A stretch of DNA of 64,000 bases. It comes from Isoetes taiwanensis. Its lineage: Eukaryota > Streptophyta > Lycopodiopsida > Isoetales > Isoetaceae. How positions within the stretch are numbered: position 1 is the stretch's first letter; each line of letters begins with the position of its first letter. The stretch is from assembly GCA_021234155.1 (NCBI GenBank), contig JAJEKV010000003.1:28875166-28939165 (forward strand), given 5' to 3'. The notes below the pieces were generated by a model. That model worked only from the letters and a program-made list of their open reading frames with translations. It was not told the DNA's origin and did no database searches. The translations under genes and the position numbers were made by a program. Of the stretch, positions 15,962-60,120 are shown in pieces.

Positions 15962-15971
15962 CTATTGAATA
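15962..15971. repeat. Target-site duplication, right (CTATTGAATA)
   Basis: Exact partner of 14360-14369; it lies directly outside the truncated 5' end of the LINE. Confidence 0.85.
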
Positions 15972-19688: not shown

Positions 19689-19704
19689 AAGTTATCACTC
19701 TTTT
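19689..19704. repeat. Target-site duplication, right (16 bp)
   Basis: Exact partner of 18711-18726, immediately outside the truncated 5' end of LINE copy 2. Confidence 0.9.
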
Positions 19705-21150: not shown

Positions 21151-21731
21151 GTGCAGAGCTCCTCAGGTCCGGCCATGCTCAGCCTTCTCGGCTTCCCGCC
21201 ATGCTCGGACGGCAGCTGCCGCGACAACTGCCAATTTCATTTCTACCAAAACCCTAACATTTTTCGCGAAACCACCAACAAAATCATACTAAAAAATAAA
21301 ACCCACCCCCTTTTCCCGCCAAACCACTGCCAAAATCATAGGAAAAGAAAATTTGGGAACCTTATCAATGCTTTGGTTGTTTACTATAAATTGTATAAAA
21401 GAGCAGGAAATCAATATCATGCACGTACATGCAAATAGCACAAGGTTAAATGATTGACATATTATTACTTTTAATTATTAACTGCCAATAGTTAAGTTTG
21501 CCTTTGAATATGACTGTGCACCATGCAAAAAATATGCTGCCGAATTAGCTTATTTGCAATAATGATAAATAATATGAACATGCATTTGTTTAGACAATTT
21601 TGAAGAATTTAAAGGCATTATTTTTCGTGGCAAATAGAATTTATGGAAGTACCATTTTTCAATTCAATTGTCCTGCTTTACAAACAATATGCAAAATTAC
21701 AAAAGTGATCTAACAGAGGTAATGATGTCAA

Positions 21732-23011
21732 TGATGTCAGGTTATTTGCAATATATTTGCACCCAGCAGCTACCATTTTCACAGCACGGTCAGCCATGAC
21801 AAGGGAATCAGAAATATGGATGTGAGGCCACAATTTCTGTGCTGCAGCCAACACGCCTTGCACCTCAGGGTCCATGTAGAAGTGTGCAACAACACCAATC
21901 TTCTTGGTTTCTAGAAGTTTTGCCAGCTTTTCCACTTTTGTACTATATGGAAACAAGTACTTAGCCTGAAATAATATAAGACATGACAAGCTGTCATGGG
22001 ATGTAAATGATTAACAAGGAAAGATGTTCATTCAGCATAAGACTAATAAAATATAATACATATTCAATGTCTGGACAAGTTGGATAATGCATGCGTCTTG
22101 TGACTAATTTGTGATAGCTATCGACTTCAAAGTTACTCTATGCAGTTCTGCCCCCCTTTGTATAGAAAAAGCTTCTGCATAAGGATATGCAAATATCGTG
22201 CCCCTCTGAGATAATTAAATAACGATGTCTCTCACAAACATCAATGCTACCTCCGCAACTTCGGCATAGAAGTTGCGGACTACCTCTTGGTCAAAGAAGT
22301 AAAAACTTGGGCAAACTATTGGATGACAACATCAGGAAGACACTTACGCTTTTTATGACAAATCGATGCTATGAATCCTAGATGACGGTGCCAATAGACA
22401 TGCCAATAATTGTAAATATTGAGATGGACACAATTTTGTGAGCAGCCGAAGGGATCTATAAGTAATAACTATAAGCAATTTGAACTAGCAAAATAATAGA
22501 TTAGGAATCACCACATTTGTCACCATGGCATCTTTTAGTAAATCCATTTTTCTTTATATACCTCAAGCTTTTAAATTGTGCAAGTAGGCTGAACAGAGGT
22601 TTCAATGGCTTCACCATTGATAACAAATAAATGGAATCGTATTAAGAGGCAAATCCTAATAAATATAGGAATTTACACGCACCACAAGCTTGATTTCGAA
22701 TTTTTAACACTTTGTATAATTGATGATAATCACCGTAAAATCGGGTTAGGAAGAAATATGTACTAACCTTGTACATCAAAAAATCACCTGGGGGACTATA
22801 TCATTTGCGATAATAAGAACGAAGGAAAAAGGCCGGAAAGTAGGCATTCCCTCCTCGCCCGCTAGTAAAATGCGTGCCTTTTTTTGCATCGTAACAAGCA
22901 CATTATACCACGTATTAGTTCTAGACATTGTTCCTCCAATCCCTATTCCAAGCCTGCCCAACAAGTCCGGGGAAGCTGCAAACACTTCCTGAGGTCTGGA
23001 ACCATTCATAG
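21732..23011 (-). pseudogene. QS: Quinolinate synthase fragment: two internal exons only
   Basis: Plant quinolinate synthase makes quinolinate from iminoaspartate and dihydroxyacetone phosphate for plastid NAD synthesis, and is a fusion of SufE-like and NadA domains. Exon A (23011-22788, minus) encodes the end of the SufE-like part: EVFAASPDLLGRLGIG, then NTWYNVLVTMQKKAR. A GTGATT donor and TTTCAG acceptor delimit an 822-bp intron (22787-21966). Exon B (21965 to about 21732) encodes the start of NadA: KIGVVAHFYMDPEVQGVLAA and SDSLVMADRAVKMVAAGCKY. The phases fit exactly (exon A ends and exon B starts at phase 0). After GCKYI the match stops without a donor, and expected later exons with the Fe-S cysteines are absent. 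The N-terminal SufE exons are also absent before the KH gene starts. Both exons are open, so this looks like a captured or duplicated fragment rather than an old pseudogene. Confidence 0.8.
22253..22278. repeat. Perfect 10-bp hairpin inside the QS intron
   Basis: CCGCAACTTC and GAAGTTGCGG surround the 6-nt loop GGCATA. It is GC-richer than its surroundings and lies within the intron of the quinolinate synthase fragment. Confidence 0.8.
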
Positions 23012-23399: not shown

Positions 23400-23862
23400 A
23401 CCATAAAGAAACAGCACTCTGCGCTTCCGTTTGGTTTTAGCAGTTCCGCTTCTTCCCCTGTTCGACGCAAGCTCGCTTTTGCTTGACATAGGTACGTCCC
23501 CCTTCATGTCCATTTCTGCCTTCTTTCCGTTTTTCTTCTCATTTGATGCAACAATGTTCATCATTTCTTCTTGTTGAAATGCCGTCCTTGCTATGTAGAC
23601 GCTATGTGGCCACCCATTTAACTTTCCTAGCTTCTTATGTTGCTTTTCTTTCTTGGGCTTCTACCTTGCTTTTCAAGTTTGTTGCTTGGGTCTTTGGCCG
23701 AATTTTGCTTTTTTGCTACAAGCCACTGTTCTCTTACTCTCAGATTTGATATTTTGTTCGTTCTATATTTTGTACAATTTGCCCAGAGGCAATTTTTGCT
23801 TGTCTTTTGTTGCCTTACATCTTGGCACAATTTGTCTGCGTTGCAGCAGTTTTTAGCGGAAT
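23400..23862 (+). promoter_or_regulatory. Promoter/5'-UTR region of the KH gene, with possible leader intron
   Basis: A GC-richer leader (about 23400-23490) ends at CATAG followed by the donor-like GTACGTCC (23491). A T-rich stretch with an acceptor (GTTGCAGCAG, about 23841-23850) follows just before the ATG. A 5'-UTR intron of about 360 bp is therefore likely. The leader lies close to the truncated quinolinate synthase exons, which face the other way. Confidence 0.4.
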
Positions 23863-26427
23863 ATGGAGGACTCTAGAGGTGGCTATGGTGGAAAGAGGTC
23901 AAGATCACAGTATGAACAAGGTTCAGGGGAGAGAAATGGTAGACAGAAAAGGCAAGGTCAAGGGGGACCTCCTGATTTTTTCTCTGAGCCACCAAGAATT
24001 ACAGTGGATGAGATCATTTATCGTATCCTCTGCCCAACTTCAAAGATTGGCAGTGTTATTGGGAAGGGTGGAAATATTATAAAGTCACTAAGGCATGAGA
24101 CTGGTGCTAAAATTAAAATTGAAGATGCAGTTCCAGGAGCCGATGAGAGAGTCATTATTATTGCCACTTCAGGCAGAGATAGGGATAGGTTAGGACGAGA
24201 AGGTAAGCCTTATGGAGAAAAAGAAAGAGACGAGAAGGATAAGGATAGCCTGAAGGAAAAGGATGGATCAAGGGATAAAATCCTTCCTTCTGTTCAAGAA
24301 GCGCTGTTCAAAGTTCACTCCAGGGTTGTCGATGGAGAAGGAAGCGCATCGGAAGAAGAGGATGATGGATCTCGGACAATTACAACCCGGCTTCTTGTTC
24401 CAAATAGTCAAATAGGGTGTTTATTAGGAAGAGGTGGGAAGATAATTGAGCAGATGAGGAGCGAAACAGGTGCTCAGATCAGGATTCTTTCGAAAGATCA
24501 GTTGCCCAGGTGTGCACTTCTCACGGACGAGCTTGTTCAGGTACAAATTAGCCCCTAAGGACACTAGTTTTGTACCATTACTGTGTTGCCCAGAATTTGA
24601 TAACCCTTTTTCCTTTGTGTTATAGTTGTCTGGAGACATGGGTGTGGTCAAGAAAGCACTCCACGCCATATCGTCCCGTCTGTTTGAACATCCTCCCAAG
24701 GACCGCCATCAAGGTCTTCCAATGCCTTTAATGGCATCAGGTGGTGGACTGATGCCACATGGTGCTTTCTATCATCCAGGGAATCCTTTGATGGCACCTG
24801 GAGGTATGGGAGGTTCCTTAATGCTTCCCCCAGTCTCACACATGGGAGCTGAAGCATGGCCATTTGGTTCTGGGGGAGGGCCTTTCCTTTCTTCTATCCC
24901 TGGGGGTCAGGGAGTTCCTAGAGATGCCCCAGAAGAGGAATTAGTTATTCGAATACTTTGTCCAAATGATAAAGTTGGAAGCATCATAGGGAAGAAAGGC
25001 AATCTGATAAGGCAACTGCGTGAACAAACGCATGCACAAATAAAAATATCAGATCCTGTTCCAAATGCAGATGAGCGCGTCATTATTGTGTCTGCGAATG
25101 AGGTAAGCAGTTACGTCTATTATCCTTGATTTCTCTTCGAGCATATAACTGACTGTTAGATGGTGGAACATAGATACTTGGGGATCCATCATTTCCCTGT
25201 TTGGATGCTGCGCTACAGCTACAACGCAGAATAACAGAATTGAGCCAAGATAAGGATGACGAGGCGACAACAAGGCTGCTTGTCCCATCAGCCAACATTG
25301 GGTGTCTACTGGGAAGAGGAGGAGGTGTGATCACTGAAATGAGAAAATTGACTAAGGCAAATATTAGGGTCCTTCCAAAAGACAGTTTGCCTGCGTGCGC
25401 TCTCGAAACTGATGAACTTGTTCAGGTATTTGTTCAAGTTGGATTAAAATGTCGTTTATGAAGCGAGATGCATCAGGTTACATATAAATACATGTCTTGC
25501 ACTTTATAACATCAATCAGCCTAATTGCCTGGTTGCGGGTGTATATAATGTGCAGGGCAAGAGTGAGCAATAAGTCTTATACTATTTTATATTTTTTATA
25601 CAGGTCAGTGGTCAGTTAGGAGTTGCACAGGATGCACTTATTCAAATAGTATCCAGGCTCAGAGCTAATTTATTTAAAGGTTATGGTGATGGTGGGAACA
25701 AAGGTGGGAATATGAACTCTGCATCGGCATATGGGGGTGCTCCCATGTCATCTGAATATGAGGACAGACATAAACCTGGCTCTCCAGGGGCTGCATATAA
25801 CCTTCCTCCACTTGGTTTGCAAAGATCGTCAATGCATTCATCTTCTGGATGGGGCCTTCAGGTAGATTTTACGAGCATTTTTTCATGGGATAGCCAACTT
25901 GATAATTAACAATGGTTTCCATTTGCACTCAATTTGCAGGATGGTGCTGGTACTTTATCTGGATCATCTGCTTTGGGAAGGTAATGATTTGCTACCACAT
26001 TTTGTGGGGGTTTGAAGTTCTTTTCTGGCGTTAAGTTCTTTCTGACATGATAGTGGCAGGTCCGGTAGTGGATTCATGGCAAATGTGTCAGTCACAACTT
26101 TAGACATAGCTATTCCAAGTTCTATAATAGGATCAATAATTGGCAAAGGAGGCTGTAACATAGCTCAAATACGTCAGGTACCTATGATACCTATGATAAT
26201 TATTTTCCTTCCACTTCTTTTCATATCGTATGCTGTCTGGAAATCTGATCTGACCCTGCTGTTGAACATAGATATCTGGGGCAAAGGTAAGGTTACGTGC
26301 TCCAGATTTCAAGTCTGGAGATCAGCGGATGGTTGAAATTTCTGGTACGCCAGAACAAACTCAAGCTGCACAAAGCCTTCTGGAAGCCTTTATAATTACA
26401 GCACAGTCTCAACAATCAAAGTACTAG
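23863..26427 (+). CDS. Five-KH-domain RNA-binding protein (HEN4/RCF3-type)
   Basis: Seven exons: 23863-24540, 24626-25102, 25174-25425, 25604-25861, 25940-25980, 26060-26177 and 26272-26427. All have GT-AG borders and the joined frame of 659 residues is intact. Five KH modules are visible by their GxxG loops: GKGG at residues 67-70, GRGG 189-192, GKKG 348-351, GRGG 432-435 and GKGG 597-600. Each loop is set in a V/IGxxIGKxG-type context (for example KIGSVIGKGGNIIKSLRHET). The N-terminus is Arg/Gly-rich, an acidic-basic linker (residues about 105-135, DRDRLGREGKPYGEKERDEK) splits KH1, and a Gly/Met/Pro-rich linker precedes KH3. Five KH domains in this 2+2+1 arrangement and a length near 600-660 match plant nuclear poly(C)-binding-like proteins of the HEN4, RCF3 and At4g18375 group. 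These act in pre-mRNA processing and stress or floral gene regulation. Which paralogue it is cannot be told from the sequence alone. Exon 6 has two possible in-frame acceptors 6 nt apart. Confidence 0.93.
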
Positions 26428-34733: not shown

Positions 34734-34737
34734 AAGC
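34734..34737. repeat. Target-site duplication AAGC, left
   Basis: The four bases directly outside the left terminal inverted repeat are identical to the four directly outside the right one (48135-48138). Confidence 0.75.
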
Positions 34738-34762
34738 AAGTCGTATTTAATTAAAGTGGGAC
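34738..34762. repeat. Left 25-bp terminal inverted repeat
   Basis: It begins AAGTCGTATTTAATTAAAGT and ends GGGAC. It is the exact reverse complement of 48110-48134, all 25 positions matching. Confidence 0.95.
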
Positions 34763-34943
34763 AAATCTTGAATTTTGGGACTCGGACTGAAAATGGGACT
34801 CACACACCATAAAAGAAATTTCTGAATTGATTGCTTGAATAGAATTACACATGATACACATAGAATTGGGTTACTTGTTTTCCTCATAAATTTTACAAAC
34901 CACTAGTTGAGATAGTTTTCAAACTTCTCAATATTATGTGCCC

Positions 34944-35165
34944 TCATACAATGATATAGCATGGAGGTTGCTCATGGCCTTGTCCATCTCCCTTCTTGGG
35001 ATCTTGTGTGTGTGCGCCTTGGCGCAGGGCTGGAGGATGCACCTCCTCCGAGCGACTTCTCTGAGCGTTTTCCCTGAGCGCCGCCTTCCCTGAGCGCCTG
35101 GACTTCTGGCGCTTGGGCTTATTGGATGCGTTGGTTTTCAGCTTCAGCGGCGCCCTCACGGTCAC
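34944..35165 (-). other. Basic C-terminal-type frame next to the left TIR
   Basis: A minus-strand frame of 73 codons is rich in Lys/Arg/Ser (for example KPKRQKSRRSGKAALRENAQ). The DNA here repeats TCCCTGAGCG-like words (35060-35096). It could be the end of the DUF7869-like protein or an unrelated frame. Confidence 0.2.
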
Positions 35166-35613
35166 CGCCTTTCTGCAGATCGTTGCTATGGGGGTTTTGG
35201 GACTCTACCTGTTTCTGGGGCAGCTCTTATGGTCTAGTGGTTTGATCGAGTTACTCCAGGGGGTCGGCACCAGGATCTCTGCATCAGCATCTATTTGCCC
35301 TGGTTTCAGTGAGAGGATGGAGGTTTAGCGCGTGCATGAGTCCGCACCAGTACTCGGCACCTAGCTGTGAAGAGGTTACGGTTCGGGGGCGTTTGTTGAA
35401 GTTCTGTTTGTTGGAGGTATGCTTGTTGCTTTTTGCAGCAGCATAGCTTTTTGGATCTGTGGTCATCATGGCAACGGTTTTTCCCCAGTGGGGTTTTTTA
35501 ATCCGGGCCATGGTGCTCACGGGCTTCGGCCCATGCAATGTATTTTTGTTTTCTTTGTACTTGTGGTCGCATGTCCTTCGTGACGCTGCCTTTGTGGTGC
35601 GACGTAAAAATAT

Positions 35614-35638
35614 ACTTCCTTCCTTCCTTCCTTCCTTT
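35614..35638. repeat. CTTC microsatellite
   Basis: About six tandem CTTC units lie in the C-terminal part of the DUF7869-like gene. On the minus strand they encode an artificial-looking GRKEG stretch and probably cause a frame change. Confidence 0.85.
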
Positions 35639-36292
35639 GCAACGTGAGAACTTGGATATGACCATACCACACACTCCACCAATTCCCTCCTTTGAGGGTC
35701 AGCATAATTTGCCCTCCACTTCTTCTCCCAGCAGTCAGTGTATTGCTCCTTCAAGTTGCCCTTCTTGTGTCTCCCAATGGGCTCCCAATATTGAATTTGG
35801 AATCCAGGACGCAACTCCTCTCCATCAGGCATAGTGGTGGTTACATCAGAGAGTGCCACCCCTAACCATATTGGACAGTCCTCATCATCAGGCCTTACTA
35901 GCACAAAGTATCCTTCCTTGATGTCCTCAAAGGGATCCCACTCAGGAAGATCAAACCACTTCGGCTTTGAGGCCTTACTTCCCACAAACCACTTGGAACC
36001 CTTGTTGGGACCCAAGTGAGCATTCTTAGACGTGCTTGCACCTTGAGAACCCTCCCATCTTGACTCTGGCAAGAACCCGTCTCTTAGCTCCCTCCCACAT
36101 GGCTGTTCAGTTTCCAAGCATGTCACAACTTTCTCCCAGTACTTGATTAGGGAGTCCATTTGATTTTTCTTAAGAGTGGAGGTGTGCTTTCCATTTCGAA
36201 CATCATCCCGGTGTGTTATGTAATCCTTGATGCCCTTCACCAGTTGGCTAGAGTCTTTGACTGTCTTGAAGGGAGGTAGTGGTTTTGGTTGC

Positions 36293-36613
36293 GGGTAAAA
36301 GCATGTTAGGGTGTACCACTTTTGGAACCTGCAAAAGTACATGCACTAGGTACTTATAAAATGGATACTTTCTCATTTTATTTTTCATTAAAACTAGTAC
36401 AAAAGTCCAAAATAGAAGTCAAGGACGTGTCAATATTCAAAGTTAAGATAAAGATAATGCTACTGGAGACCAAAATATATATAAAAGTTCTAAAATGTAC
36501 CTTTTATTGAGATATTACACGAGTACCCAGTACCTAGTCCTGGGTACCTTTTTAGGTACTTTTTTAGTCACTAAATAATACTTTTTAAGGGACACCCTAA
36601 CATGCTTTTACCC
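36293..36613. mobile_element. Nested 321-bp element with 22-bp TIRs and TTGC duplication
   Basis: The 22-bp word at 36293-36314 (GGGTAAAAGCATGTTAGGGT plus GT) is the exact reverse complement of 36592-36613. TTGC lies directly outside both ends as a 4-bp target duplication (36289-36292 and 36614-36617). The element sits inside the DUF7869-like gene between ...LIPKGQ and PKPLPPF.... Removing it with one TTGC copy restores an uninterrupted reading frame. Alternatively, on the minus strand, a donor at its first bases (GG then GTAAAAGC, GT at 36611-36610) and an acceptor (TTTTGCAG, AG at 36330-36329) would splice out 283 bp in frame, leaving 14 extra codons. Confidence 0.85.
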
Positions 36614-38865
36614 TTGCCCTTTAGGAATGAGAACTTCACCAGCAGCACCCCTTTGCCACAACTCGATACCTTGTACAGGCATCCACAACTTGTCACCTGG
36701 TCTCCACTTATATTGCATGATTGGTATTCCATCCCTAACCCAAAACTTGAACTGAAGTGGCTTTGTGTGTCCTGTCAACTGGTCCTTACCATCTAGCAAG
36801 TATCCTTCTACAAATGATTTCCAATCTGCAACCTCATCCATCAAGAAAGCCATTGGGTTGGGGTCAATGCAGCTCTCAAACACATCCATTAGTTCAGGGA
36901 GAGTGGTCACGTTTTCTCTCTTGAGCTTGGTGGAGAAAGTTCCAAAGAATCCATCTATATCATCATGCGTATGCCCAACCATCATGAATCCCACTTTCAC
37001 AACTTTGAATACTCCCACTGCTGTCAAGTATGACATTGCCCCAAACATCCATCTATTCTTGTTTTCTTTCCAACAGTTGTCCAACTGAACACATAGCTCC
37101 TCGGGCAGTGATTTCTCAAGTAAGGGGAAATCATCCCAAGTCCTCCTTGATTCACCAGACACCTTGGATGTGAGCTTTTTTAGCTGCCTTTGGTAACAAA
37201 GCGGTTGATCATCCATCAAAGCCTCAAAAATGGGTCTTTGAAGGGAATACCTCCTCCCTTCTATCGATCCTTTCTCTAGTGTTCTCGTGCACTTGAAAAT
37301 AGAGCTCACATGGAAGTTTGGATCATCTCTCCATAGATCAAGCACAAAATGACCATATGTTCCAGTTCCATGACCATGTGTTAATACACCCCGGACTTAC
37401 TTTCATCCGAAAAGCGTTTTGACAACGCTTTGGGTAAAGGATCTAGCTTTGGCAAGAAAGTCTTGTGTTGGTCCATCTTATCATGAATTATACACAAAAA
37501 TTTGTCCGGCCGCATCTCGAAAAATGTTCTCCACTTTGCCAATACAAGCTGTCTACATGATATTTGGTCCCTTTGGTGATCTGCAAATTGCTCCCTAATT
37601 GCCATTCTTTCTTTCTCTATTGCAGGTTGATGCAAGTGTATCCTTGAGTTGAATGCAAGTGTTGCACTTTGAGAATGGCATGTGTTGTAGGACACTCACG
37701 TCCGAAGTGAGTGCTCCATAACTTCTTGAAATGTGATTGAGAAAGAGGCCTACCTCCGGTGGTTTCTAGGATGGAGTTGACCTCCTTAAAGGCACTCCTT
37801 CCGGATATAGTGTTGTGGCAACACTCTTTTGCACCACTCGCACATCGTGCTCGTTCACCTTCGACTTGTGAGGCATAGATTGAGACATGTATCTCACAAA
37901 GCTCTCGAAGATCTGCAATGGCCTTTAGAGTATTTGCTCTAGTTTTCAAAGTGAGTGCATTACCATGTTGGAACAAAGTGTGCCCTTTTCTAACCTTGCT
38001 CCCAAGTCTGTAAAATGAAGACTTGCTCACCCCAAGAATCCATCTCAATGCTCTCATACATACCTTCATGCCCCTCAATTGATATAGTAGCCGATCCGTG
38101 TTTTCATCATAGCTTTGGAATTCCTACACAAGGAGTAAATGAAATTAATCCTATCTTTTTGAAGCATCCCAATGTATTGGGACCTTATCTCGCACGAGGT
38201 CATCCACATTGTATCTTTGCAGACTGTGCAATCTAGGTTGCAACACTCTTGTCCCCTAATTGCCTCCGGGTTTTCTTTGGTTGGTGCCATACTTTCCATC
38301 CTTTCTAAATATTTGTCACTTCTAGGCCTCTTGGGCACCTTTGGCTGCCTTTTATGAAAGACATAGCGTCTCTTCCTTGTGATCAAAGGATGCTCATCGA
38401 CCACCAAATCTTCCACATGGCCTTGGGTGGGCCTTGGGGTGTGTAGTTCAGTAGGGCAATCTAGAGTATCACCATTCTTGTGTGTAATATATCTAATTGG
38501 CCATCTCAACTGAGCTTGGGACTCCAGCAGCCCTGAGCACACAATGCAATCACTAGAGCTTCCCTGGGACATGATTGTATCAACTTCGATAAGAAGCTTC
38601 ACAATGCCAACTCCAAGATGTTCATCTCCCAGCCTCTCATCATTCACACTATCAAATGGATCAACTGCAGTTATTATACCCTCTGCAAATACCGTCTGGT
38701 TGCAAGGGTGCAACAAAAGGCAACCCATCTTCCTCCATTGGAGCCTAGGGCAATGGCCTCCTTTGGACTTCCCTGGCTCCATTTTACTCATCTCACATGT
38801 TCCCTGAATGAAAAAGCTCACATTAAAACCATATAGCCCCAAACACCACAAATATGACCATATGA

Positions 38866-39055
38866 ACCATATAAAACCATACAAACATATTAAATATAAT
38901 CATATTATATCATACAACCATATTAACTAAAATCATACAACCATATTAACTAAAATCATATAACCATATTAAAGCATACAACCACACTCATTCTAAACCA
39001 TATGTAAACATTGTAAACATATATAACCATTGAAACTATTCAACCATTGAAACCT
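38866..39055. repeat. AT-rich minisatellite, AACCATATTAACTAAAATCATA units
   Basis: Words of about 22-24 bp (ACAACCATATTAACTAAAAT and degraded forms with AACCAT or AAACATAT) are reiterated. It lies just upstream of the DUF7869-like gene and may form part of its promoter region. Confidence 0.75.
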
Positions 39056-39500
39056 TATTAAATACATAAGATAACATATATAAACATATAACCTACCCTT
39101 TCATATCTTGTCATGTCCACGTGGCGCCTCTTGAGGCTTGAAACCGCGCTATGCATGTCGGAATCCAGATCTGCCACGTCATGGAGGGCATGGCCCTGCG
39201 TGACAATGGTTTTATTATTGCACTTTTCACGAGGTTCGAGGGTGCGGCCCAGTGCTTGCACCCTCTTCCTCTCCCCCCGATTCATTCTTCCTCCCACGTT
39301 TTCTCGATCACTCATCCTCCCCCTTTTCCTTAGGCGCTTTCACCGTCGAGGCGATCGATCGAGCCGGCGATTCCAAGGCCATCTTATGACAATAGCTTGG
39401 TCGGCCGGATCGGGGCGCTTCCGGCCAAGTTCTCGCCAGATTCATTGTTCGGCGGCGTTCTGCTTTGAGAAGAAAGTGAGGCCCTTTTAGTCTTTGCTTT
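39056..39500. promoter_or_regulatory. Putative divergent promoter region of the 13.4-kb element
   Basis: This lies between the minus-strand DUF7869-like gene and the plus-strand half of the element. It contains a CCACGTGG G-box (39117-39124) and a second CCACGT word (39174-39179). A sharp rise in GC content and a pyrimidine-rich leader (39255-39335) follow. No TATA box is clear. The function is inferred from position only. Confidence 0.3.
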
Positions 39501-40299
39501 TTTTTTAGTTTTACGTAAGTCCTTTAGTGCATTTTTTACTTATATTACATTGTTAGAGGCTCTTATTGATCCACGATACAATTTACAGCCCAGAAATCCT
39601 TATTCACGCTTTGCCAAACGACTATACCCACATGGAAGCAAACTTCGGAAGCCTCCTCCTCATCCAGCCAAATCTTCGGGTATGTTTTTGTAATATCATA
39701 CCCTTTTTTTAATCTCATTTCTCTGTCTTTGTTCTCCAGCGTTCTCGTACTCTTCTCCACCGTTCTCTGTTTTCTCATTGATCTCAATAATCTCAACATT
39801 ATCTGTTTTTCCCTTTGTATTGTTTTTCTGTTTTTGTTATCTTTTTCTTGCTTGTGGTTGAATTGAATACATTGTACTGAGGCACAAGTGAGAATAGTGG
39901 TTAGAGTAGTAGCAAGCAACCGGATAGAAATCATCGAGACTGGTGTTAGGAACTAAGATATTGCGAGCATTAACAAGAACATAACTAGGAATGTCTTTCT
40001 CCCAAAGAACTAAGAATAGGAATTGCTTCACTGAATCTCCATTTCTAACTCACAAAAATCCCTAATCGGGGAGACACATGCAGAAGGGAGTGGCGAGTTG
40101 GGAATACTTCAACTTGCCAACGATCCGGAAGTGCAGGCCTTCTTCTCGGCTCTCGACTCGCGGGCGAAAGAGGGAGTGTACACTGGGCTTGTTGGCGGTT
40201 GAGATTCTCGACTTCGATTCGGATTGCCGCGGCTACCCAATGTCTTCACATTCTTTAGAACCTTTGCGGCCTTCTAGGCTTCGTGAGTCGAGAATGTGA
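39501..40299. other. GC-varied stretch inside the element, no gene recognised
   Basis: A minus-strand frame of 123 codons (39934-39563) is basic and unrecognised. From about 40140 the first degenerate copies of the CTCGACTTCGCGAGTCGAG palindrome appear (CTCGACTCGCGGG, CTCGACTTCGATTC, GTGAGTCGAGAA). Confidence 0.4.
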
Positions 40300-40330
40300 T
40301 ACCTGCCAATGGCTCTTTGTGCCGGTCGCG

Positions 40331-41650
40331 GTGCCTCCACCCGATCTGAGCCACTCTCCTTGAACCATGCTCGCCGAATATTGCGAAGAGGGGCGGCTCG
40401 GCGGGTGGAGACCTCGGCGACTAACCCGCGAGGAGTTGTTGGCGCTTTCCTCGACTTCGTGAATCCGGCTTAGCGAGCTCTAGTGCACTCTAGAGCTGGC
40501 TGCGAGCGATCTTAACCACTCTCCTTCTATCTTCCCTCGGACATTGCGAAGGGAAGTGGTTTCAACGTTGTCTGCCCGGCCAACTCTTAGCAACCCAATT
40601 CTCACATTATTGGTCACGCCCGTGGCCTCTACCCAATCAAAGGCCCAGTCTCGCCCGAACCATCTTAAATTAGAATATTGCGAAGGGGATGGGCTCCCCG
40701 ATTGGTGGAAGCCTCGGCGACTAACCAGAAGGTGCTGGCGCTTTCTGACTGGAGTAATTCGAGAAAGAAAAACCGATCTACCAGAGCTGGCTGCGGAGCC
40801 GGTCTTAACCCACGGGGAAACCCGCTCCTTCTATCTTCCTCGGGACATTTGCATGCAAGAAGGGGTTTTTTTACCATTGATGTTTGTATACTTACCATTA
40901 GGGGTTTTTGCCATTATCAAAGGGGCAAAATATATACTTTAGGGTTAAATTAGCTTCCGCAGTCGGTATACTAGGGATGTTTTTTGGGCACACTTCGACG
41001 CGATGTCCATACCCTTTTATTACTAAGTGCATCCCCCAGGGAATGCATTCTACCAAACCAGAATGGGAATGCCTTACCCAACCGCACTCCATGTGTACCA
41101 TCCGGGTTTCTCGATGGCTAAGGCATTCTCGACTTGCGAAGTCGAGAATATGAACTAAACCAACTCTGCGCCGCGGAAACCATAGAGCTTCTTGCATTCG
41201 CCCTCGCCTCGGTCGGGAATGCCTTAACCAACAGGCACTCCGTGTGTACTAGCCGGAGTTACGGATGGCCCAGGCATTCTCGACTTGCGAAGTCGAAAAT
41301 GTGAAACGAAAAATAATCGCATTCTCGACTCGCCAAGTCGAGAATCCCGCCCAACCGACCAATTCTCACCTTGTATGGTAGCGGTGGCCTCGACCCGGTC
41401 GAGTCACTCTCCTTGAACCATCTTAGGTCGAGTATTGCGAAGGGAGGGGCTCGGGTGGGTGGAGGCCTCTACAACTAACCACGAGGGGAAACCACCAGAG
41501 AGGAAGCCAAGGCTTGCATTCTCTACAAGTCTTGCACTTTCTATTCTCTGTTTTTAGTCCCAAGTGCCTCTAGCACATGCGAGCCACTCTCCTTGAACCA
41601 TCTTCCTCGAATATTGCGAAGAGAGGAGTGGTTGAGACAGGGAGGAGGCC
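40331..41650. repeat. Family of long stem-loop repeats, five copies
   Basis: Copies of about 50-115 nt lie at about 40331-40413, 40514-40562, 40624-40713, 41387-41466 and 41574-41650. Each has a loop containing CTTG/CTTCTATCTT... to ATTGCGAA and flanking arms that pair with each other. Inner arms are CACTCTCCTT with AAGGGAG- or AAGAGAGG-type partners. Outer arms are CCTCCACCCG with CGGGTGGAG (copy 1), or CTCTACCCAATC with GATTGGTGGA (copy 3). Copies differ in sequence while arms stay complementary. The words GACTAACC and GAGG follow most copies. Confidence 0.75.
41067..41279. repeat. Second hairpin repeat, two copies ending in the CTCGACTT palindrome
   Basis: GAATGCCTTA (41067-41076) pairs exactly with TAAGGCATTC (41119-41128). 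The copy at 41217-41279 has GAATGCCT and AGGCATTC arms. In each copy the right arm runs straight into a CTCGACTTGCGAAGTCGAG palindrome (41125-41149, and from 41275). Confidence 0.8.
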
Positions 41651-41679
41651 CTCCAGACTAACTACAAGAGGATGCATTT

Positions 41680-42480
41680 GAACCGCATCTCACGGGCCTT
41701 AGTCCTAGCCTGATCTATGTACAACATTCCAAGTAAGCGGTCCATGAAAAAACACACCTAAAACGGGCTGTTCTTTACCCCCGATCCATTGTTTCCTTGC
41801 CGAGCATCTCTCAACCCGAGAGAGAGTAAATCATCTCTCGAAGCTGAAAAAATCTTGGACAAGGAAACGATGAATCCGTCGAGCTTATCGGCGGTTCCAT
41901 TATTTAAACATATCGACATGTTCTACAAAGCGAAATAACATAGGCATCTCGAAACTCACCTCTTCACGCGCGGTAATTCCTTGAGCCCTTTGTATCCGCG
42001 GATCCCGCACCTCACCTAGAGTCTTTGCTTCTTACAGCCGGTCTCTTCAAGAGTGTATTCGCATCTAATACTTGTATCATCACGATTCTCGCGTATCCCG
42101 TTCCATGGCGCCAGATGTAGAGTTCAGGTCCGCAGCTCCTCTCCGGCTTCCTACCTTAGCTCCGTGCTCATCGATCAAATCAAGCGCTTGCAATAGGGCC
42201 GGTCGGAAAAACACATATGCAAGGCGTTAGCGGCTTTACAGCGTCGGCGGCGCCATTCCCAAGTCGCTAACGGTCGATGCTCCCCTCCGAACTCGAGGGT
42301 CCCCAATGCCGCGGGGAAGATAAACTACGCTCCGCTCACTTAGTCCCTTGATATGATTAAATTTGAAATAGTGTTTGGGCGGGCTAAAGCCGACCGTCTT
42401 TGTACCCTTTAGCCGCTTCTTTTCATAAATGATTGCATGTCCTTAACTTCAAATTAAAGAACACGCCCGATCTTTTTTAC
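41680..42480. other. Inside the element, nothing further recognised
   Basis: Short inverted words such as CTCTCAACCCGAGAGAGAG (41811-41830) occur. No frame with recognisable domains was found. Confidence 0.4.
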
Positions 42481-43834
42481 ATGCAGTCCTAAAACTCAAC
42501 GCCGGAGGAGACTTAATTTCTGAGGGGTCCAAAGAGGATGAGAGGGCATCTGAGACATGACTCCGTCCTAAGAAGCGGCGGCCGGAGGATGCTTCTACCG
42601 GCGGCGGCAAGAAGAAGAAGACAAACACCCGGGTGAGCTCGAGGTTTTTTTTTTGTCGAATACCTTAAGCGATCCATCCTTTCTTCTTGCAGCATTCACC
42701 TCGGACTCAGCGGTGATCAGCGGCGAACTCCATTCTTAAATCATCGAGGGGCGGAGACGAGCTTCTTGAAACAGCAGCAGATTCTTGGTGGTATGTCGAG
42801 GTATCGACAAGTGGGAAGGAGAAAGATCTGTTTCTACACCAAAGGGACAAGAAGAGCTCCGGAGACAAGTACAAGAAAATCGGTGTTGTGCTCTCCGTCT
42901 CTGCGCCAATTCAAAGCATTTAACACTACATGTCGAGGGCTGCCCGGAAAGAGTAAGTTCTATCACACCAAAAATTAGCGGTTTCAAATTATTCTCACTC
43001 TTCCATGAGCAAGGCTAAGGGCACCCAGAAAAAGGCGGCCTTTAAATTGTCGAGAACCTTGGGTGGAAGGATGCTGGAAGGGATGAAGGAGGCGGAACCC
43101 TAACATCGAGGGGAGCTTGGTATGGAGATTTCAGTCGGGGAAAAAGCTGTTCAATACGGGGAGCTTCACTTCTCTTGTCTTTGAAGACTCTACAACACTC
43201 TGATGGGGAATGAAGTTGTGGTTCATACACAAAAAAAAAGTCCACCAAAAACAAAGATGGGGATGATGACACCACACGGGAGGAATCGGATGACGAAGGA
43301 GAGCGAATATGGGGCGAGTCCCCAATAATGGATCGGATGATCAGATCAGGATTTCCGCGAGAGGGGCCGCAGAAAATGGAAGCGTCTAGCTCAGTATTAT
43401 CCGTTAGGGAATATCACACAAAGTTGCTTTCTTTGGACATTAGACGGCTGAAGGTTTGCACGGGAGATCTGCCGTCTTGTTCAACCATTGAATTTAATCC
43501 AGACACATGCTTGGAGATTCTGAACCGATGGTGCGACATCCCGATGCGGATCCAATGCTGCGGATGTCATACCTTTTAACAGATCGGCCAGGTGGTACGT
43601 TGTTTGGAAGTCCGAGGAAGATCCGGGGAAAAGACGTCGGTTACGGGTTGTAGGCGGTCGGCATTCCAGGTGAGGGCGCGCAAAGTATTGCTGACGGAGA
43701 AGGAGGTGCCGCAAAGGATCAAGGATAGATATGCCAGCGAGAGTCACGAGTTCTTTCACGGAGACGCCAAGAACCGAATTGGCGGCATTAGCCACTGCGA
43801 GAACACAATAGCGGCCCGGTGCCAGCTACGTAAG

Positions 43835-44267
43835 GTAAATAACTCTCGAATCTTTCCATTCTCGACTTCGCGAAGTCGAAAAACCATCCTAACATTTTCC
43901 CGATTATCAGCAGGGGTTTCATTTCGCGAGTCGAAAAGCCGTAACTGACCTGAAAATCAAAGGATGTAGAGCTTTCTCGACTTCATGAGTCGAAAACCCC
44001 GAAAGTAAAAGAAAATTAGGCGTTCAAGGGACTTTCTCGACTTCGCGAGTCGAGAAAGCCTACCATCTAACATTTTTCCCGATTATCAGGGGTTTCTCGA
44101 CTCGCCAGTCGAAAGCCAGGCGTAAACACCGAGAAAATCAAAGGATCGCGAGCTTTCTCGACTTCGAGTCGAGAAAACCGAATAAGTAAAAAGAAAATTA
44201 GGCGTTCAAGGGACTTTCGACTTCGCGAGTCGAAAACCCGGGCTACTATTTCCGCTTTTTATTGCAG
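43835..44267 (+). repeat. Intron filled with CTCGACTTCGCGAGTCGAG palindromes in a duplicated block
   Basis: Donor AAG/GTAAAT at 43835 and acceptor TTGCAG at 44267. Inside are seven palindrome copies near 43862, 43921, 43978, 44038, 44096, 44158 and 44217. From about 43889 to 44240 a unit of about 175 bp occurs twice. The unit runs CTAACATTTTCCCGATTATC, palindrome, GAAAATCAAAGGAT, palindrome, AAAATTAGGCGTTCAAGGGA, palindrome. Confidence 0.8.
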
Positions 44268-45948
44268 GTTTTTGTAGATGCTTTCATGCTCTGACATTGG
44301 TGCATTGACTGAATGCAGCCCTTATCCTGACCAGATCATACACGCTGAAACAAACGATGGAAAGCATTGGGTTGTCCTCGGCGTCCTAAAGGAAAGGGGC
44401 TCCCTCGGATAAGTGGAAGACCTTTGAGAAACTATGTAGATATGTTACTGGAGGAGGGACGAGGGAAGATGATGAGGAGGAGAGGAAGAAGAGGAGAAGA
44501 AGAAGAGAACACCAAGGAAAGGCGGGGAGTCTCTCTCGGACCAATATGACCTCATTCTTAGCACCGAGCGGTGCAGGAGAAATGGACGAATATGGGCTCA
44601 ATGGACAAGAGGCAAGGCGAAGGGCGGCAATGGAGAATTTCCATCCAGGCCGGACCCCAAGTTGTTTGACAAGCGGTTCATGAGGATACATGGCCTCCGC
44701 GGACAAAAACGCTTGACACGCAAAGGCGAGAATCTTGGATGGAACAATCACGCTAAGGAAGACTAGGAGTTCTAAAATGCGGGGCGCAAAGGATTATGCC
44801 ACGATCCTAAAGCGGCGGTCGTCGTTTAGAAAAAAGGCATCACGGAGTTACGCAGCGTTGCATCTAATGAATACCATGACTTTGATTTTTACAAGGAAAA
44901 GGCTGCCCTTGATGAGGAAGACATGAAGGAATTGAATCGTCTATGTCAACCCTACATCAACACGAAGGCTGAAGCGTAGCGTCAAAACCCTTCCTTTCCA
45001 CGAGCGTGCTATGGCAGTTCGAAGAGGAAGCTTGGATTGGGTGGTCCCATTTAAAGGCCGACGATAGCTCCCCCATTTACGCTAACTTTGGGACACAAGG
45101 GATTTGGTGGTGCAGGCGGCACCTGGACCCGGTGGCACTATTTGTCATCAATATGATCGAAGACCCCACCCTTTTTATGACAAAGGCGACATAGAAGCGA
45201 TGGTACAAGGCGTGTCTAGACATGACCGACTGGATACTTTTCGGTTTCCTTGTCTTTTGCATCTTGGGGCAATCGGACAAGCTGCTTGTCTCCCAATGGG
45301 CGGTGATATTAACTTCACCAACAAGATCATGTACTCCATATCACGAACTTGATCATGAGTGTAGACTTGGCTTGCCGAAGGCACAAAGCTTTGCCAACAT
45401 AGTTTTGGTTTTGATTTCAAGATCGGTTTGTAGACACGGATAAGTGGTGGTCTAGCGAGCATCATTATCTCGGCAGTTTCATGATCTCTCAAGAAGCGGA
45501 TGGAACCACGGAAGGGGGCAGATTTATGGAGGATGTTCCATCGATGGACAAAGGTCAAAGCAAAGATGGTGCGGCGGGTCCTATACATAGAATTCCTATC
45601 CGGCCAAGAGTTATCAAGTACTTCATAACCAGCACGGTGAGGAAGATCAAATTGTATCGCGAGTGGTACATGAATGGCTGTTCTTCTCTCGAGGGGGCTA
45701 TCTTTGTTTGGAATGAAACCTATATCCGTGGTTGGAAATAAGGACATGGTTGAAACCATTCGGTCATACACGGATCTGCTTCATGAGCATTTCAAGGGAG
45801 GAAGACAAATGGAAGCGATAAAGGCGGCGAGGGCGAGGGGAGACCAAAGCGGCGTGAGGCGTGATTGTCGAAGGTTTAGACAAGGATGCTTTGCCGAACA
45901 CATTCTTGAGAATCTGAGATTGAGGTGAGTTTACTTTGCTCTATCGGT

Positions 45949-46032
45949 GTTTCTCGACTTCGCGAGTCGAAAACTTCGTTCCTTTCAATACCTTTTTCTT
46001 TTCATTCTCGACTCGCGGAGTCGAGAATAACT
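45949..46032. repeat. Two palindromes after the 45.93-kb donor
   Basis: CTCGACTTCGCGAGTCGA near 45955 and CTCGACTCGCGGAGTCGAG near 46008, both ending in AAAACTTCGTTCCTTT- or AATAACTTCGTTCCTTT-type sequence. They lie just downstream of a splice donor, as in the upstream intron. Confidence 0.8.
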
Positions 46033-47009
46033 TCGTTCCTTTACGGCGGATGTCATCATTTCGGGAGTTCCATGTCAACGACTCGGATCATTGTCATTGG
46101 ATACCGGCCGGTTCCGCGTCGCGAGGAGGAGAGTGCACTCCACAAAGACAATCGAGCAAGACACGCTCCACGGCCCGAAAAAGGACCGAAAAGATAATGA
46201 TCCCGCATTTGGATCCCGATGAACCGGAAATATGGTCGAGCCAAACTCCAAGCGGGATCGGTTTGGTCCCGCCAAGCTTGTAATATTTGGCGTCAATGGA
46301 GTATTAGCTGCTGCGGTATACCACGATAAAGGCGTCCCAGATTAACACCTCGCGGATCAGGCCGAGCGGACATAAAATAGTGTATCAGGGCCTAGAGCTA
46401 AGAAATTATTGAATGGTGCATTGAGCGGGGGATTGAAAGTGGGCATATGGTCTTGTATGGCAAAAAGAAAAATATTGTCAATGTTCTTGGTGTTCTCGGC
46501 ATTTCGGTTTTGAAGTTCAAGTTAGTTTGGGGAAGCGAAAGGGTCGAGCATGTGTGGGACCTCGATCCGACCATCACAAAGGGGAAGCCTATAATGGTGA
46601 AAAGGCTGGACCGGGGTTTATGAGCAATTCGGGGACTATGGCAAACACAACCGCGCTGATCATAGGCGACTCATACAAGTGCTATCATAGCAGCGCAAAA
46701 TACAATCATTGCTAAGCCATATCGACTGAAGAATATGAGGCGGATAGGTGGTTGTCCTTGGTTGTGTCTGTCTTGGCGGAATCCCTCTTTGCCATTCTTG
46801 TCGCCCGATGTGATTAGGAACTATCCGAGCCTCCGCGGAACCCGATCCGAGAGCAAGCAAAGCGATCATGAAAGCTATGGGCGACAAATATTTTGGTGAA
46901 CAAGAAGAGTGACCTCTGCTTTGAGATAGTCAAATTGTGTGAATATTGTAAACAAGCGTGAAATGTATTGAACATTTTGTAATGAATATACTTGTATATT
47001 GAGTTTTCG

Positions 47010-47225
47010 ATGCCTTTCTCGACTCACGCGAGTAGCGAAAGGCATGCTTGTCTGTTGATGAGACCATTTGTATGTTTGATTGTGTGGCCCGGATGCGACC
47101 ACAATGTATTATGATGATGCTTCTACGTTGCGTTTCACGGGCCTTTCACTTTCGCGGAGTGAGATTGGCAACTTGGTTGTACTTTCACTTTTATGGGCCT
47201 TTCTGACTCGCGAGTCGAAAGACAC
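47010..47225. repeat. Degenerate palindromes downstream of the plus-strand gene
   Basis: GCCTTTCTCGACTCACGCGA...GCGAAAGGC (about 47009-47043), CCTTTCACTTTCGCGGAGTGA (47141-47161) and CCTTTCTGACTCGCGAGTCGAAAG (47202-47221, slightly longer). Each has an outer GGCCTTTC-type arm. A last trace, CTCGACTTCGCTAACCCGAAAA, lies at about 47968. Confidence 0.7.
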
Positions 47226-48109
47226 TACTCCGTCATTGGATGCGGTTGTATGGAATGAATGTTCTCCATTGTAATTTGATTTCAACATTCTTTTCTTCGT
47301 TTTGACTAATGGCACCGTAATTGTTAATCATACTCTCCTTGCTCCGGGTGGTTCGAGCCTGAGTCCGACACCGCCACGGATCCCTTCGGGCATCCGCGAG
47401 GAGACCGCTCCAGGCGACGCAGATCCCACTCAAAGGCGGAAAGAAATACCGTTCAGCACGGATCCGGTCACGCTACACTCTTGCCCGGCCTTTGGGATAA
47501 AGGTTGCTTTCGGGAATTGAGAGGTTGCTTCGCTACACCACAGGGATAAAGAAACGGCCGAAGAACAAAGAAAGTCGGGGAAGCTCAAAGCATCTTGCAA
47601 GCATTGCATAACATCCACGGAGGTTGGCGAAGGAGCATATTGATGGAAAGGCTGCGGGGGGAGTGGAGAAAGTCGAGGTGGGCGAGTCGGCGGTAGCTCG
47701 AGAGGCACCTCCACGTGAGGCATTCCACACCCTTGAGTTGCCCCAAGGCTTCACGGTCGGCGTGAAAGAAGCTAGTTAATCCCCTAAGGTGGACCACCTC
47801 ACGAAGATGATGTAAGCTGTAGTGGCAAGACCACCATGGTCTCTGGCGTCCAGATGTAAAATACATTGTACTGTTCAATTTATTAATAAAAATTCTTTTT
47901 TCAACTAGATCTTTGGTTTCAAACTTTAATGAATTTCCTTTGTTTTGATTTGCATTGTTCTTGTTCTCGACTTCGCTAACCCGAAAAGCTGCGACAAAGC
48001 TTGAATCACGAGTTTTATTCAAAAATTCGAATTAAGGATAGTTTTCGGGTCGGGGTGCTCCTTTTTGTGTAAATTAACAGGGTTACGGAAAAAAGTGGGA
48101 ATGGAATGA
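47226..48109. other. Right end of the element, no gene recognised
   Basis: GC-rich until about 47750, then AT-rich to the right TIR. Frames of about 70-145 codons on both strands show no domain. Wording such as GGCGGTAGCTCGAGAGGCA suggests more decayed coding DNA, but no family is recognised. Confidence 0.4.
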
Positions 48110-48134
48110 GTCCCACTTTAATTAAATACGACTT
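48110..48134. repeat. Right 25-bp terminal inverted repeat
   Basis: Exact reverse complement of 34738-34762; ends ...AATTAAATACGACTT. AAGC follows at once. Confidence 0.95.
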
Positions 48135-48138
48135 AAGC
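48135..48138. repeat. Target-site duplication AAGC, right
   Basis: Identical to 34734-34737. The empty site would read ...GATTTGTAAGCTCGATTTGG.... Confidence 0.75.
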
Positions 48139-57260: not shown

Positions 57261-60120
57261 ATATGGCTCCTTCATGCAATTTCTTTGGATGCATTTTGTA
57301 GGTGATATTTTTTTATGGCACTCAAGCTTCTTTGTCGGCAAAGGCACATTATAGCTCATGACATGTTCGATCGATGTAGGTCTATGTTACGGCTTCCTTT
57401 TTGAGCTTCTAGAAATACATCGATAAAATGTTTTAATTATTTGTCTTGGGTTGAGAATACTTGGGTGCCAAAAAAAGCACCGTCAGACTTCAATCTTTGA
57501 GATAAGCAACTATCTGGATGGGTACTCGAAGTTCCATTACGCCTATCTAACTTGCATGCACGGATGTTATCACGGGCACGAGGTTCTGGCTGGTTTAGTT
57601 CATTCTCATGTTGGCATTGCTTATAGATGGAAAATAAAGCATAAGCAACCACTTGTGATCATGCATGAAGGTAAGTTATACATTTTGAGTTATTCAATTG
57701 TGGCCGACTATCTTTTTGAATCTTGAGGATAAACAAAAGGCATGTCTTTATCTGCAAGTCATAACATATATATTAGTACTTGCTTCTTTGGACACATTTT
57801 GGAGTGTTGAAATATGCCTTTTGATTTGAAGAGCTTGAAGATCATTTTTGTCTCATGCGCTTTCACATGACCTTATTTGCAGATTCAATTGCAGCTTGAT
57901 ATGGTAATAACGGCAAGTGTACCCATTTTTGCTACCATTTAGAATCCCATGAAGTGAACCCACATAGTTTTGGGGCATATCACGTGTCTTGAGAGCTTTT
58001 GGACTGGCTCATGTACTTTGATCTATTTCACCCATTTGTACTCTGAATTTGAAAAACATATACCTAGCATCTTTTTATAGGTTGTTCCACTGAGCTTTCC
58101 AATGCATGCTCATGTTTAGGAAATGGAGCTTTCTTCTTAAAGTTACGACCCTATTAGTACTCTCTGCTGTAAAAACTAGACCCGACAAATGCAATTTGTC
58201 ATATTTGACATATTTAGACTAGGAATTTGAGAACTGTGTGCCTAAGATTTTTTTAGGTCTTTCCTTAAGCTTTTAAATGGATGCCCTGTTGGTGGAGCGA
58301 GGCTTGCATTCTTCATTTCATAGTTTGGCATCATTGGATTTTAGCTTCTAGGCTCTGCCTTAGTCTCAACAATTTTCTATGTTTGCCAAATTTGAGTCCT
58401 TTGATCTAAGTTTCTAAGTATGGTTTTAACGCAGATCAAATTTGTTTCAAAGAGTTGGCATGTTAGATGATAATCTAAACTTTGGGCGGCAAAGGCGGAC
58501 AACAAGATACGCCTTCAACTTAGATGGGATGTTAGTGGGGGCATTCATGTGAGATATCTTGAGACTCCTAAGTTAGTGTTGGTGTTGCGTGAAGGCACAA
58601 ATTCGACTATCTGAAATTTCCATGTTTTGATGAAGCAAAGTGGCCTTTCACGCAGCCAATAAGCAATCATGATATTGAAGGTTAGGGATTATTCCCTCAT
58701 GCATCTTGGATTTTATAATTCTCTTACGCCACAAGGCTATTATACAAAATTTGAAGCAGGCGGTCTGTTATGGGCGGAAATGGAATCTATTATTAACAAT
58801 TGGATATTCTAGATGGCTACGTTTTGTAAGCTGTGTCATATTTTGATGTGTTTATCCAACAATGAGCTCCACATTATATCAACTTCTCACCCATGGAATG
58901 ACTATGAGGAGCTAGGAAAATATAGAAAATATAGAGTTGCTTTTCATATTGGATCTACTAAAGCAAATAGAAGACTTTGTATGGCAAAATTAATTTATTG
59001 TTATTCTTCTTCTTTAAACCCCGTGTGGTATCTGAGGCAATTGCTAGGTGAAACTAATTGAAATTGCAATTCAATCAATATTCATTTTTTGTCGGTCAAT
59101 TTAAACATCTTTACTTTCTTTGTTGTTTATGAATAAACGAATTTGAAGAATATGGAAAATGCTCATGGATAATGGCGCTCATGGACTTGCAAGGAAACAC
59201 TTAAAGGTTATTATTTGTTGTAGTGCTTTCTACAATGGAGTGTGTTTGGCGCCACGACAAATTGTTTGAGATAAAATGGACTTGAGCAAGCATTGCTTTT
59301 TAGTATTTTGCTAATGTTACTTCGTATAACTTTTACTTGATGTAACTTATAATATAAGCAATAAACATCCATTGTCATTCATTATCTTCATGTAACATAC
59401 ATAAAATAACTGACATCGATACAAAGGTTCAACATTGTTTCGATATTGTTTTACATAATCCATGGAAAACGTTGTTAAAGCTTTGAAAAAAAAAATTGTT
59501 ATAATAAGAAGTTACAAAAGTTGGCTTATTACTGCAAGCCCTTCTTATTGCAGCCAAAACATTTACAGTAGAACTTATGCCAAAGAACAACTGGACACCA
59601 TTAGTTCTAAATAATTTTCTATCCTCTCCCCAAATCTCGACTTTCTATTTCGGATATCTTGCTTATGTTCCTTCACTTTCTATTTCCGGATATCTTGCTT
59701 ATGTTCCTTCACTGCTGACGATTTTTCCTCCAGTAACATCAAGTGGAGGCGACATTTTCCCAGTTGTCCAGGCCTGACAATGACCCGGCATACAGGTGGA
59801 GCTGCAGATAGACTTTTTGGGGTAAAATACAACAGGCTAAGATTTAAAAAGATCATCTATCAACCGACAGAGCTGGCCCTTGCATTACAGAAAAAATCGG
59901 TTTGATCTGAAAGGTATGGACCACCAATCGGGCAACAAACTCCTATATTTTACGTTCCTAAAAGATTGCCAGCGATTTATTCTTCAAAATATCATTTATT
60001 ACGAATACTGAAGAGAAGAAGGAAAAACCGAAACTAAGAAGGATGCCCAACAACACTAAGCCAAATTGGAGAAGAAAAAGAAGAAGTTTTGATTAAAATG
60101 CAGGAAAAAAAAAAGGGTAC
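57261..60120. other. Non-coding stretch, nothing firm
   Basis: Unrecognised frames of 91 codons (57451-57726, +) and 82 codons (58813-59061, +) are present. A short duplication, CTTTCTATTTCGGATATCTT (59640 and 59680), lies near 59700. No gene could be identified. Confidence 0.4.

Follow-up and report, generated by a model that had tools for sequence, protein, structure and literature searches.

Among DNA transposons bounded by terminal inverted repeats (TIRs), the CACTA/EnSpm elements are large, carry two genes and have smaller non-autonomous partners; their target-site duplications (TSDs) measure 2-3 bp and their termini read CACTA. The duplication is of 8 bp in hAT, 8-11 bp in MULE, 3 bp in Harbinger and 3-4 bp in Academ elements, it is TTAA in Kolobok and piggyBac, and VANDAL elements carry in addition anti-silencing genes named VANC. 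Sola1 is recorded from the moss Physcomitrella (PMC9033089), the target duplications of Sola2 are described as AT-rich, of the form AWWT (PMC3627910), and fungal DNA transposons with accessory TET/JBP dioxygenases have been described (PMC12730594). Here we describe an element of 13,397 bp in a 64-kb window of the Isoetes taiwanensis genome (GCA_021234155.1, contig JAJEKV010000003.1); the window is the whole stretch of DNA that was analysed, and positions follow its numbering. The element is very probably one copy of an amplified cut-and-paste (class II, TIR) DNA transposon family of this 1.66-Gb genome, and we infer its transposase to be a protein with the DUF7869 domain.

The transposon reading is based on constant ends, 4-bp duplications, differing insertion sites, one empty site, 2217 exact ends and two size classes. 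The copy in the window is delimited by the following features.

34734-34737, no strand: left 4-bp target-site duplication AAGC (sequence comparison of both ends)
34738-34762, plus strand: left terminal inverted repeat of 25 bp (1102 forward and 1115 reverse exact copies in the genome)
34738-35013, plus strand: conserved left terminus of 276 bp (100% identity, 40 scored places)
48110-48134, minus strand: right terminal inverted repeat of 25 bp (right 500 bp: 2138 first-look candidates)
48135-48138, no strand: right 4-bp target-site duplication AAGC (sequence comparison of both ends)

An earlier note, made from the letters of this DNA, had claimed perfect 25-bp inverted repeats next to an AAGC duplication and a match between the ends beyond chance, and both claims held: the ends agree at 25 of 25 bases, AAGC flanks each of them, no third site with up to 3 mismatches occurs in the window, and the 100 shuffled controls gave none. 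The genome searched for copies comprised 1,658,258,908 bases in 1110 contigs, where the 25-mer stands exactly at the 2217 places split by orientation in the list above, against none for the reversed control. The left 501 bp gave 1944 first-look candidates, the right 500 bp 2138, the transposase 1613 and the right block described below 1176; these counts are unconfirmed, 40 places being scored per search. Over the left 276 bp, all 40 scored places (of the 1944, window included) were 100% identical.

Pair sizes were taken from the first 100 of the 2217 listed places, among which 34 pairs of ends face each other (12 at 3.5-5.8 kb, 12 at 11.0-12.7 kb and 10 at 14.6 kb or more) and 9 neighbours stand back to back, while certain listed ends have no listed partner. 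Two main size classes, of about 4 kb and about 12 kb, are thus seen among the listed facing pairs, and the ten pairs above 14 kb may contain nested elements or be chance neighbours. The search with the 25-bp terminus and inverted pairing, which the earlier note had proposed, returned many copies, and the listed places do not resemble the solo repeat without consistent partner that it had named as the contrary outcome, as 24 of the 34 facing pairs fall into the two size classes.

For the target duplications, 16 pairs of ends were compared: the window copy, 12 pairs matched by eye (on one contig and one strand, at most 40 kb apart, from 40 left and 40 right scored ends), one copy called C1068, picked since its flank matches a repeat within the window, and two elements of about 4 kb. 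A perfect 4-bp duplication was found in all 16, with 15 distinct sequences, as had been expected of other copies; a duplication of 5 bp was rejected (none in the 14 pairs tested). The paired ends are the exact 25-mer save for two right ends, L079 and L080, with 1 and 2 mismatches respectively, and three of the 12 pairs matched by eye exceed 14 kb (18.7, 22.2 and 39.6 kb), presumably through nested insertion. Empty sites had also been proposed as a check, and one was found for C1068 inside the window.

59194-59388, plus strand: unoccupied repeat, the empty site of the C1068 copy, with CATT at 59291-59294 (matches both flanks of that copy)

The repeat that flanks C1068 stands empty here, with CATT at the junction; for the window copy the check gave nothing, its own empty-site string being absent from the assembly with up to one mismatch. 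Constant inverted ends in many copies, a duplication of fixed length that varies from site to site and an empty site for one copy are the features of a class II TIR transposon.

The 12-kb form carries two divergent gene regions: the minus strand encodes a DUF7869 protein, the plus strand a protein with a marginal FCP1/NIF-like HAD match. The pair of divergent gene regions that had been claimed is present, and both were found again in other copies. The minus-strand gene, the putative transposase gene, reads as follows.

39098-39315, minus strand: probable first exon of the transposase gene, as read from the sequence (a GT..AG intron, 39097-38804, comes next)
37384-38803, minus strand: N-terminal and central part of the putative transposase; the first acidic motif, IIHDKMDQ, lies near 37.48 kb, and the frame changes several times in this copy
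36611-37396, minus strand: open frame with most of DUF7869 (PF25273) and the motifs QLDNCWKENKN and VGHTHDDID (E = 2.4e-42)
35633-36292, minus strand: C-terminal part of the putative transposase gene (present in 26 of 26 other copies; like the C-terminal region of L107 by eye)

The DUF7869 domain (PF25273) of this gene, which extends from about 39.3 to 35.6 kb, was matched at E = 2.4e-42 with 145 bits, the curated cut-off being 26. Searching the genome for DUF7869 gave 9903 first-look candidates, and all 150 that were scored lie above the cut-off; none of 14 control genomes gave a signal. Other DUF7869 families score best, among them L088, which has a frame of 987 amino acids (L088:3049-6009, minus strand) and a divergent open reading frame (ORF; L088:6784-7521, plus strand); 8 kb searched for the ends of an L088 element gave no TIRs that pair convincingly and have a 4-bp duplication. 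An alignment, A1, was made of nine sequences, namely the window fragment, the family copy L010 and seven of the 11 other DUF7869 loci, leaving out L092 and L093, which start in another frame, and L095 and L088, near-identical to others by eye. The motifs IIHDKMDQ/VIDGMDQ, QLDN..(R/K)ENKN and VGHTHD(D/Q)ID are kept in A1 across the DUF7869 families of the genome. The window protein has these acidic motifs in common with the other families but is only 29-32% identical to them, and it has about 54 extra residues before QLDN. Nearer to it, with 36% identity over 364 positions and the motifs kept, is L107 (CADCWO010000071.1), a frame of 898 amino acids with an open 5' end; its contig is filed under a metagenome-assembled genome (MAG) of Synechococcales and is probably eukaryotic contamination of that cyanobacterial MAG. 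A virus or phage origin was rejected, the DUF7869 fragment having no phage match by tblastn and no relative in viral contigs (plasmids were not searched). DUF7869-gene sequence adjoins the left end in all of 26 copies, which had been preselected, 7 by a left-end match and 19 by a transposase match. Its motifs, its position and its abundance suggest that the DUF7869 protein is probably the transposase.

In the mechanism that we propose, the DUF7869 protein would be an RNase H-like DDE/D enzyme whose acidic motifs (IIHDKMDQ, QLDN and GHTHDDID) would bind metal ions. It would bind the TIRs and excise the element, which would then be joined to staggered cuts 4 bp apart, and repair would yield the 4-bp duplication. 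The same enzyme may also move the elements of about 4 kb, which have the outer 32-36 bp sampled in common with the 12-kb form but not the sampled interior.

Two of these short elements were compared with the 12-kb form: over the 32-36 bases sampled they have the same ends (one mismatch in all), and they are flanked by 4-bp duplications. Three of four samples of their interior had no match in the compared sequences, and the fourth matches only beside an end nested in the family copy L037. An interior sample of one of them, C40, was found again inside three other listed pairs of about 4 kb (C49, C53 and C95) and had 658 first-look candidates; of the samples from the other, C1, one, with 1067 first-look candidates, is found within the C49 pair as well, and another had 12 matches only. 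The short elements, whose interior was sampled in part and may hold a gene, probably make up a single non-autonomous group, or a small number of them, mobilised in trans. The end nested in L037, a 12-kb copy, runs from L037:3194 onward and is probably that of a short element. One short element also contains a palindrome, TTCTCGCCTCCCAGGCGAGAA (L101:90-110), with the outer TTCTCG..CGAGAA of the palindromes of the 12-kb form and a different core.

The right part of the 12-kb form is distinct in composition and contains the second gene.

39116-47807, plus strand: right block, CpG-undepleted and hairpin-rich, which contains the second gene (best segment of a two-model composition comparison)
41126-46027, no strand: most palindromes of the type TTCTCGACT(N)AGTCGAGAA
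42900-46900, plus strand: second gene region, divergent from the transposase gene (approximate limits; frames interrupted here)
46270-46700, plus strand: FCP1/NIF-like HAD phosphatase region with motif I VIFGVNG and, here, a later motif IIGDS (PF03031 in two other copies)

The composition comparison was trained on 41-47.5 kb. It had been claimed that the GC content of the whole unit differs from its surroundings; the GC and CpG difference lies mainly between about 39.1 and 47.8 kb, in the right two thirds, and not in the unit as a whole. The claim that the element is full of hairpins of its own was confirmed: all 11 CGACT...AGTCG hairpins of the window lie inside it, within the right block, and each of 20 right-block loci (window included) has 3-12 of them, which makes such hairpins a family trait. 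Nesting of the right block into the window copy alone was rejected, because other copies show the same arrangement. The right block with its plus-strand second gene was found again in other copies, and eight ORFs picked for length from six loci (L036, L037, L039, L044, L045 and L047) were scanned; two gave PF03031 (NIF) matches, in L037 at E = 1.8e-4 with 21.7 bits and in L047 at E = 2.3e-3 with 18.1 bits, and the Pfam hits other than NIF at E 0.02-0.25 are regarded as chance. The second gene thus weakly resembles FCP1/NIF HAD phosphatases, a name drawn from a match just below the cut-off. In some frame of each of the 20 right-block loci (L029-L048, window included) a motif-I-like string is present, and the string VDGQHS is found in 4 of the 20. 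A later I-I-x-D string has Asp in 9 loci and Gly in 9 and was not found in 2; in the window Gly replaces Asp in both VIFGVNG and IIGDS. The split between Asp and Gly may be real or an artefact of base calling. Phosphatase chemistry is doubtful for the second protein as its motifs read, and that it is an accessory or anti-silencing factor is a guess. Three-base periodicity gave no coding signal in the element, though the KH gene of the window shows one, and so lends the second gene no support; the absence is expected where frames are interrupted. Two tandem palindrome-rich units of about 180 bp at 43859-44236, perhaps an intron, sit in the second gene between a GT-like and an AG-like splice site.

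Two smaller insertions have struck the window copy.

35014-35632, no strand: nested 619-bp insert private to this copy, with a (CTTC)n run at its end (missing in all 26 other spanning copies)
36293-36613, no strand: private nested miniature inverted-repeat transposable element (MITE) of 321 bp, with 25-bp TIRs (96%) and a 4-bp TSD, TTGC on the plus and GCAA on the minus strand (absent from 26 of 26 other spanning copies)

The unit of 13,397 bp that the earlier note had drawn has its boundaries right, but 940 bp of it are these two later inserts. The first contains a string like a tRNA A-box and is perhaps a short interspersed nuclear element. The MITE belongs to another family, which also makes a 4-bp duplication, and lies within the transposase coding region; in L010, which is without it, a frame of 591 amino acids crosses the insertion site. 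Both the transposase and the second-gene frames of the window copy are broken at several places, and this copy may be dead.

A chance pairing of two small dispersed repeats, in place of a true 13.4-kb unit, would suit the back-to-back neighbours, the ten facing pairs above 14 kb and the ends without listed partner among the first 100 places; for the pairs examined it is countered by matching TSDs and by the two size classes, and we hold it to be extremely improbable. The ends might instead be moved by another transposase, the DUF7869 gene and the second gene being passengers. The short elements show that such ends can flank an unrelated interior, and Pfam annotates DUF7869 as a domain of unknown function. 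Yet DUF7869-gene sequence stands beside the left end in the 26 copies, preselected as they were, the acidic motifs are retained between families about 30% identical, the 9903 candidates are what a transposase would give, and the Pfam scans of the element found no other transposase domain (past 42 kb, the minus-strand scan covered single ORFs only); passengers of this kind are quite unlikely. Several points nevertheless weigh against a two-gene transposon with a DUF7869 transposase. Besides the Pfam annotation, a single-sequence structure model of the DUF7869 fragment was poor, with a predicted local distance difference test (pLDDT) score of 35, and a profile search of solved structures gave no transposase, its sole hit being a hemoprotein receptor at E 0.022 that we take as chance; two other sequence searches of the PDB gave no match, nor did NCBIfam for five proteins. 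The longest transposase frame among the fetched loci has 591 amino acids against at least 898 in L107, therefore activity of any element is only putative. The ten facing pairs above 14 kb fit neither size class unless they hold nested insertions or are chance neighbours, and a perfect TIR of only 25 bp hardly tells the age of the element. As for the second gene, its best PF03031 match (21.7 bits) falls below the gathering score of 21.8, Pfam had no hit on the window's own second-gene frames, and motif I does not read DxDx(T/V): it is VIFDVNG in 8 of the 20 loci and VIFGVNG in 12, window included, with Gly at the first catalytic Asp, and Asn takes the place of the second Asp in every one of the 20. 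The cut-and-paste family with a DUF7869 transposase remains our preferred reading.

Within this preferred reading, the history of the right block and the state of the genes have to be weighed. For 19 copies of each, the transposase has a ratio of observed to expected CpG of 0.27 (0.21-0.36) and the right block one of 0.95 (0.85-1.02). Host DNA elsewhere in the window has low ratios as well (0.41 for the KH-gene region with introns, 0.16 for a presumably PEX19-like frame; whole flanks 0.48 and 0.61), which makes the right block the exception and counts against a methylation reading: the block may simply derive from a CpG-rich source. Of two relatives of the DUF7869 gene that were measured, L088 has a low ratio (0.34) and L107, from another organism, does not (0.87). 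We tentatively consider, as a matter close to balance, that the element gained the right block and its second gene at a later time, perhaps from a foreign or a captured source, instead of keeping them hypomethylated. Against this, no source sequence was found, and the excess of transitions at CpG over other sites between copies is 8.5-fold for the transposase against 2.5-fold for the right block, as lowered methylation in situ would also give; base-calling error may raise the non-CpG rate in this ratio. A more daring proposal, which we think unlikely, makes the second protein a new type of anti-silencing factor that recognises the palindromes containing CG, TTCTCGACT..AGTCGAGAA, and shields the right block from methylation, in an element whose transposase represents a superfamily of as yet undescribed mechanism that duplicates 4 bp of target non-selectively. 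If true, it would explain why CpG retention is limited to the right block and why palindromes are concentrated there, and the element would be a lycophyte counterpart of the VANC and TET strategies in which an FCP1-like fold serves binding, not catalysis. Real decay of the frames, leaving a fossil that could move, if it still does, in trans alone, is plausible although we lean somewhat away from it. The frames are broken at several places, the MITE interrupts the coding region, and the other 19 copies are interrupted too, to varying degree. In alignments of at least 600 columns, overlapping pieces of one copy being left unmerged, indel events are nonetheless frequent relative to mismatches between copies (in the transposase 1.2% indels to 2.9% mismatches, in the right block 4.1% to 6.0%, over 19 copies of each), a share that exceeds usual natural decay. 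Moreover, 41% of the indel events in the transposase and 50% in the right block recur at positions affected in at least 5 copies, though many of these positions may mark where the window copy differs. The paper on the likely source assembly reports nanopore v9.4.1 flowcells (PMC8566536). These counts suggest that a share of the frameshifts is base-calling error, which the MITE is not; because of this possible error, the state of the genes cannot be judged from this assembly.

Outside the element, the window contains fragments of retrotransposons without long terminal repeats (zf-RVT and RVT_1 hits) at 2566-3234 and 14442-15978, and 19305-19691 repeats part of the first of them by eye. Pieces of host genes include a NadA-like one at 21681-22010, below the cut-off, a multi-KH RNA-binding protein at 23857-25906 (23857-24555 scanned) and the presumably PEX19-like frame at 63088-63537, which had no Pfam hit. 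No Rfam family reached its gathering score in the window, and ARAGORN found no tRNA there.

When set against the common plant superfamilies, the duplications of this family measure 4 bp in 16 of 16 pairs, where hAT, MULE, Harbinger and CACTA make other lengths, and none of the Pfam domains of these four was found in the element scans. The 16 duplications are 75% A+T; none is TTAA, as Kolobok and piggyBac would make, and one fits AWWT. By these duplication lengths, the statement that the unit fits none of the common plant superfamilies was upheld. The suggestion that the group is undescribed is tentative: the name DUF7869 was not found in 5.39 million open-licence papers, but repeat catalogues may list relatives under another name. 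Likewise, among the matches listed, no open-licence title on Isoetes transposons, transposases or Sola, or on NIF with transposase, describes the family. DUF7869 hereby gains a genetic context, with terminal repeats, a target duplication and long and short forms, that makes a role as transposase testable. Given the 9903 first-look candidates (150 scored), such elements may be a large unnamed fraction of the repeats of this genome, and the second gene and the CpG contrast bear on whether plant transposons other than MULEs carry anti-silencing genes of their own.

Among described systems, Sola comes close in that both are TIR DNA transposons with a 4-bp target duplication and that Sola is known from a moss. 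The AWWT preference given for Sola2 (PMC3627910) is not seen here (1 of 16), a difference drawn from descriptions and not from transposase sequence. The duplication length of Academ fits as well, when compared by description only; because Sola and Academ were compared in this way, no superfamily is claimed. CACTA/EnSpm elements have two genes, TIRs and small partners in common with this family, which differs in its 4-bp duplication, in its AAGTCG termini and in the lack of a CACTA transposase domain in the Pfam scans. Finally, the fungal elements with TET/JBP genes, the VANDAL elements and the family described here have all retained a second, non-transposase gene through amplification; unlike TET/JBP or VANC, the accessory gene of the Isoetes element has a marginal likeness to FCP1/NIF-type HAD phosphatases, and any anti-silencing role for it would be conjecture.

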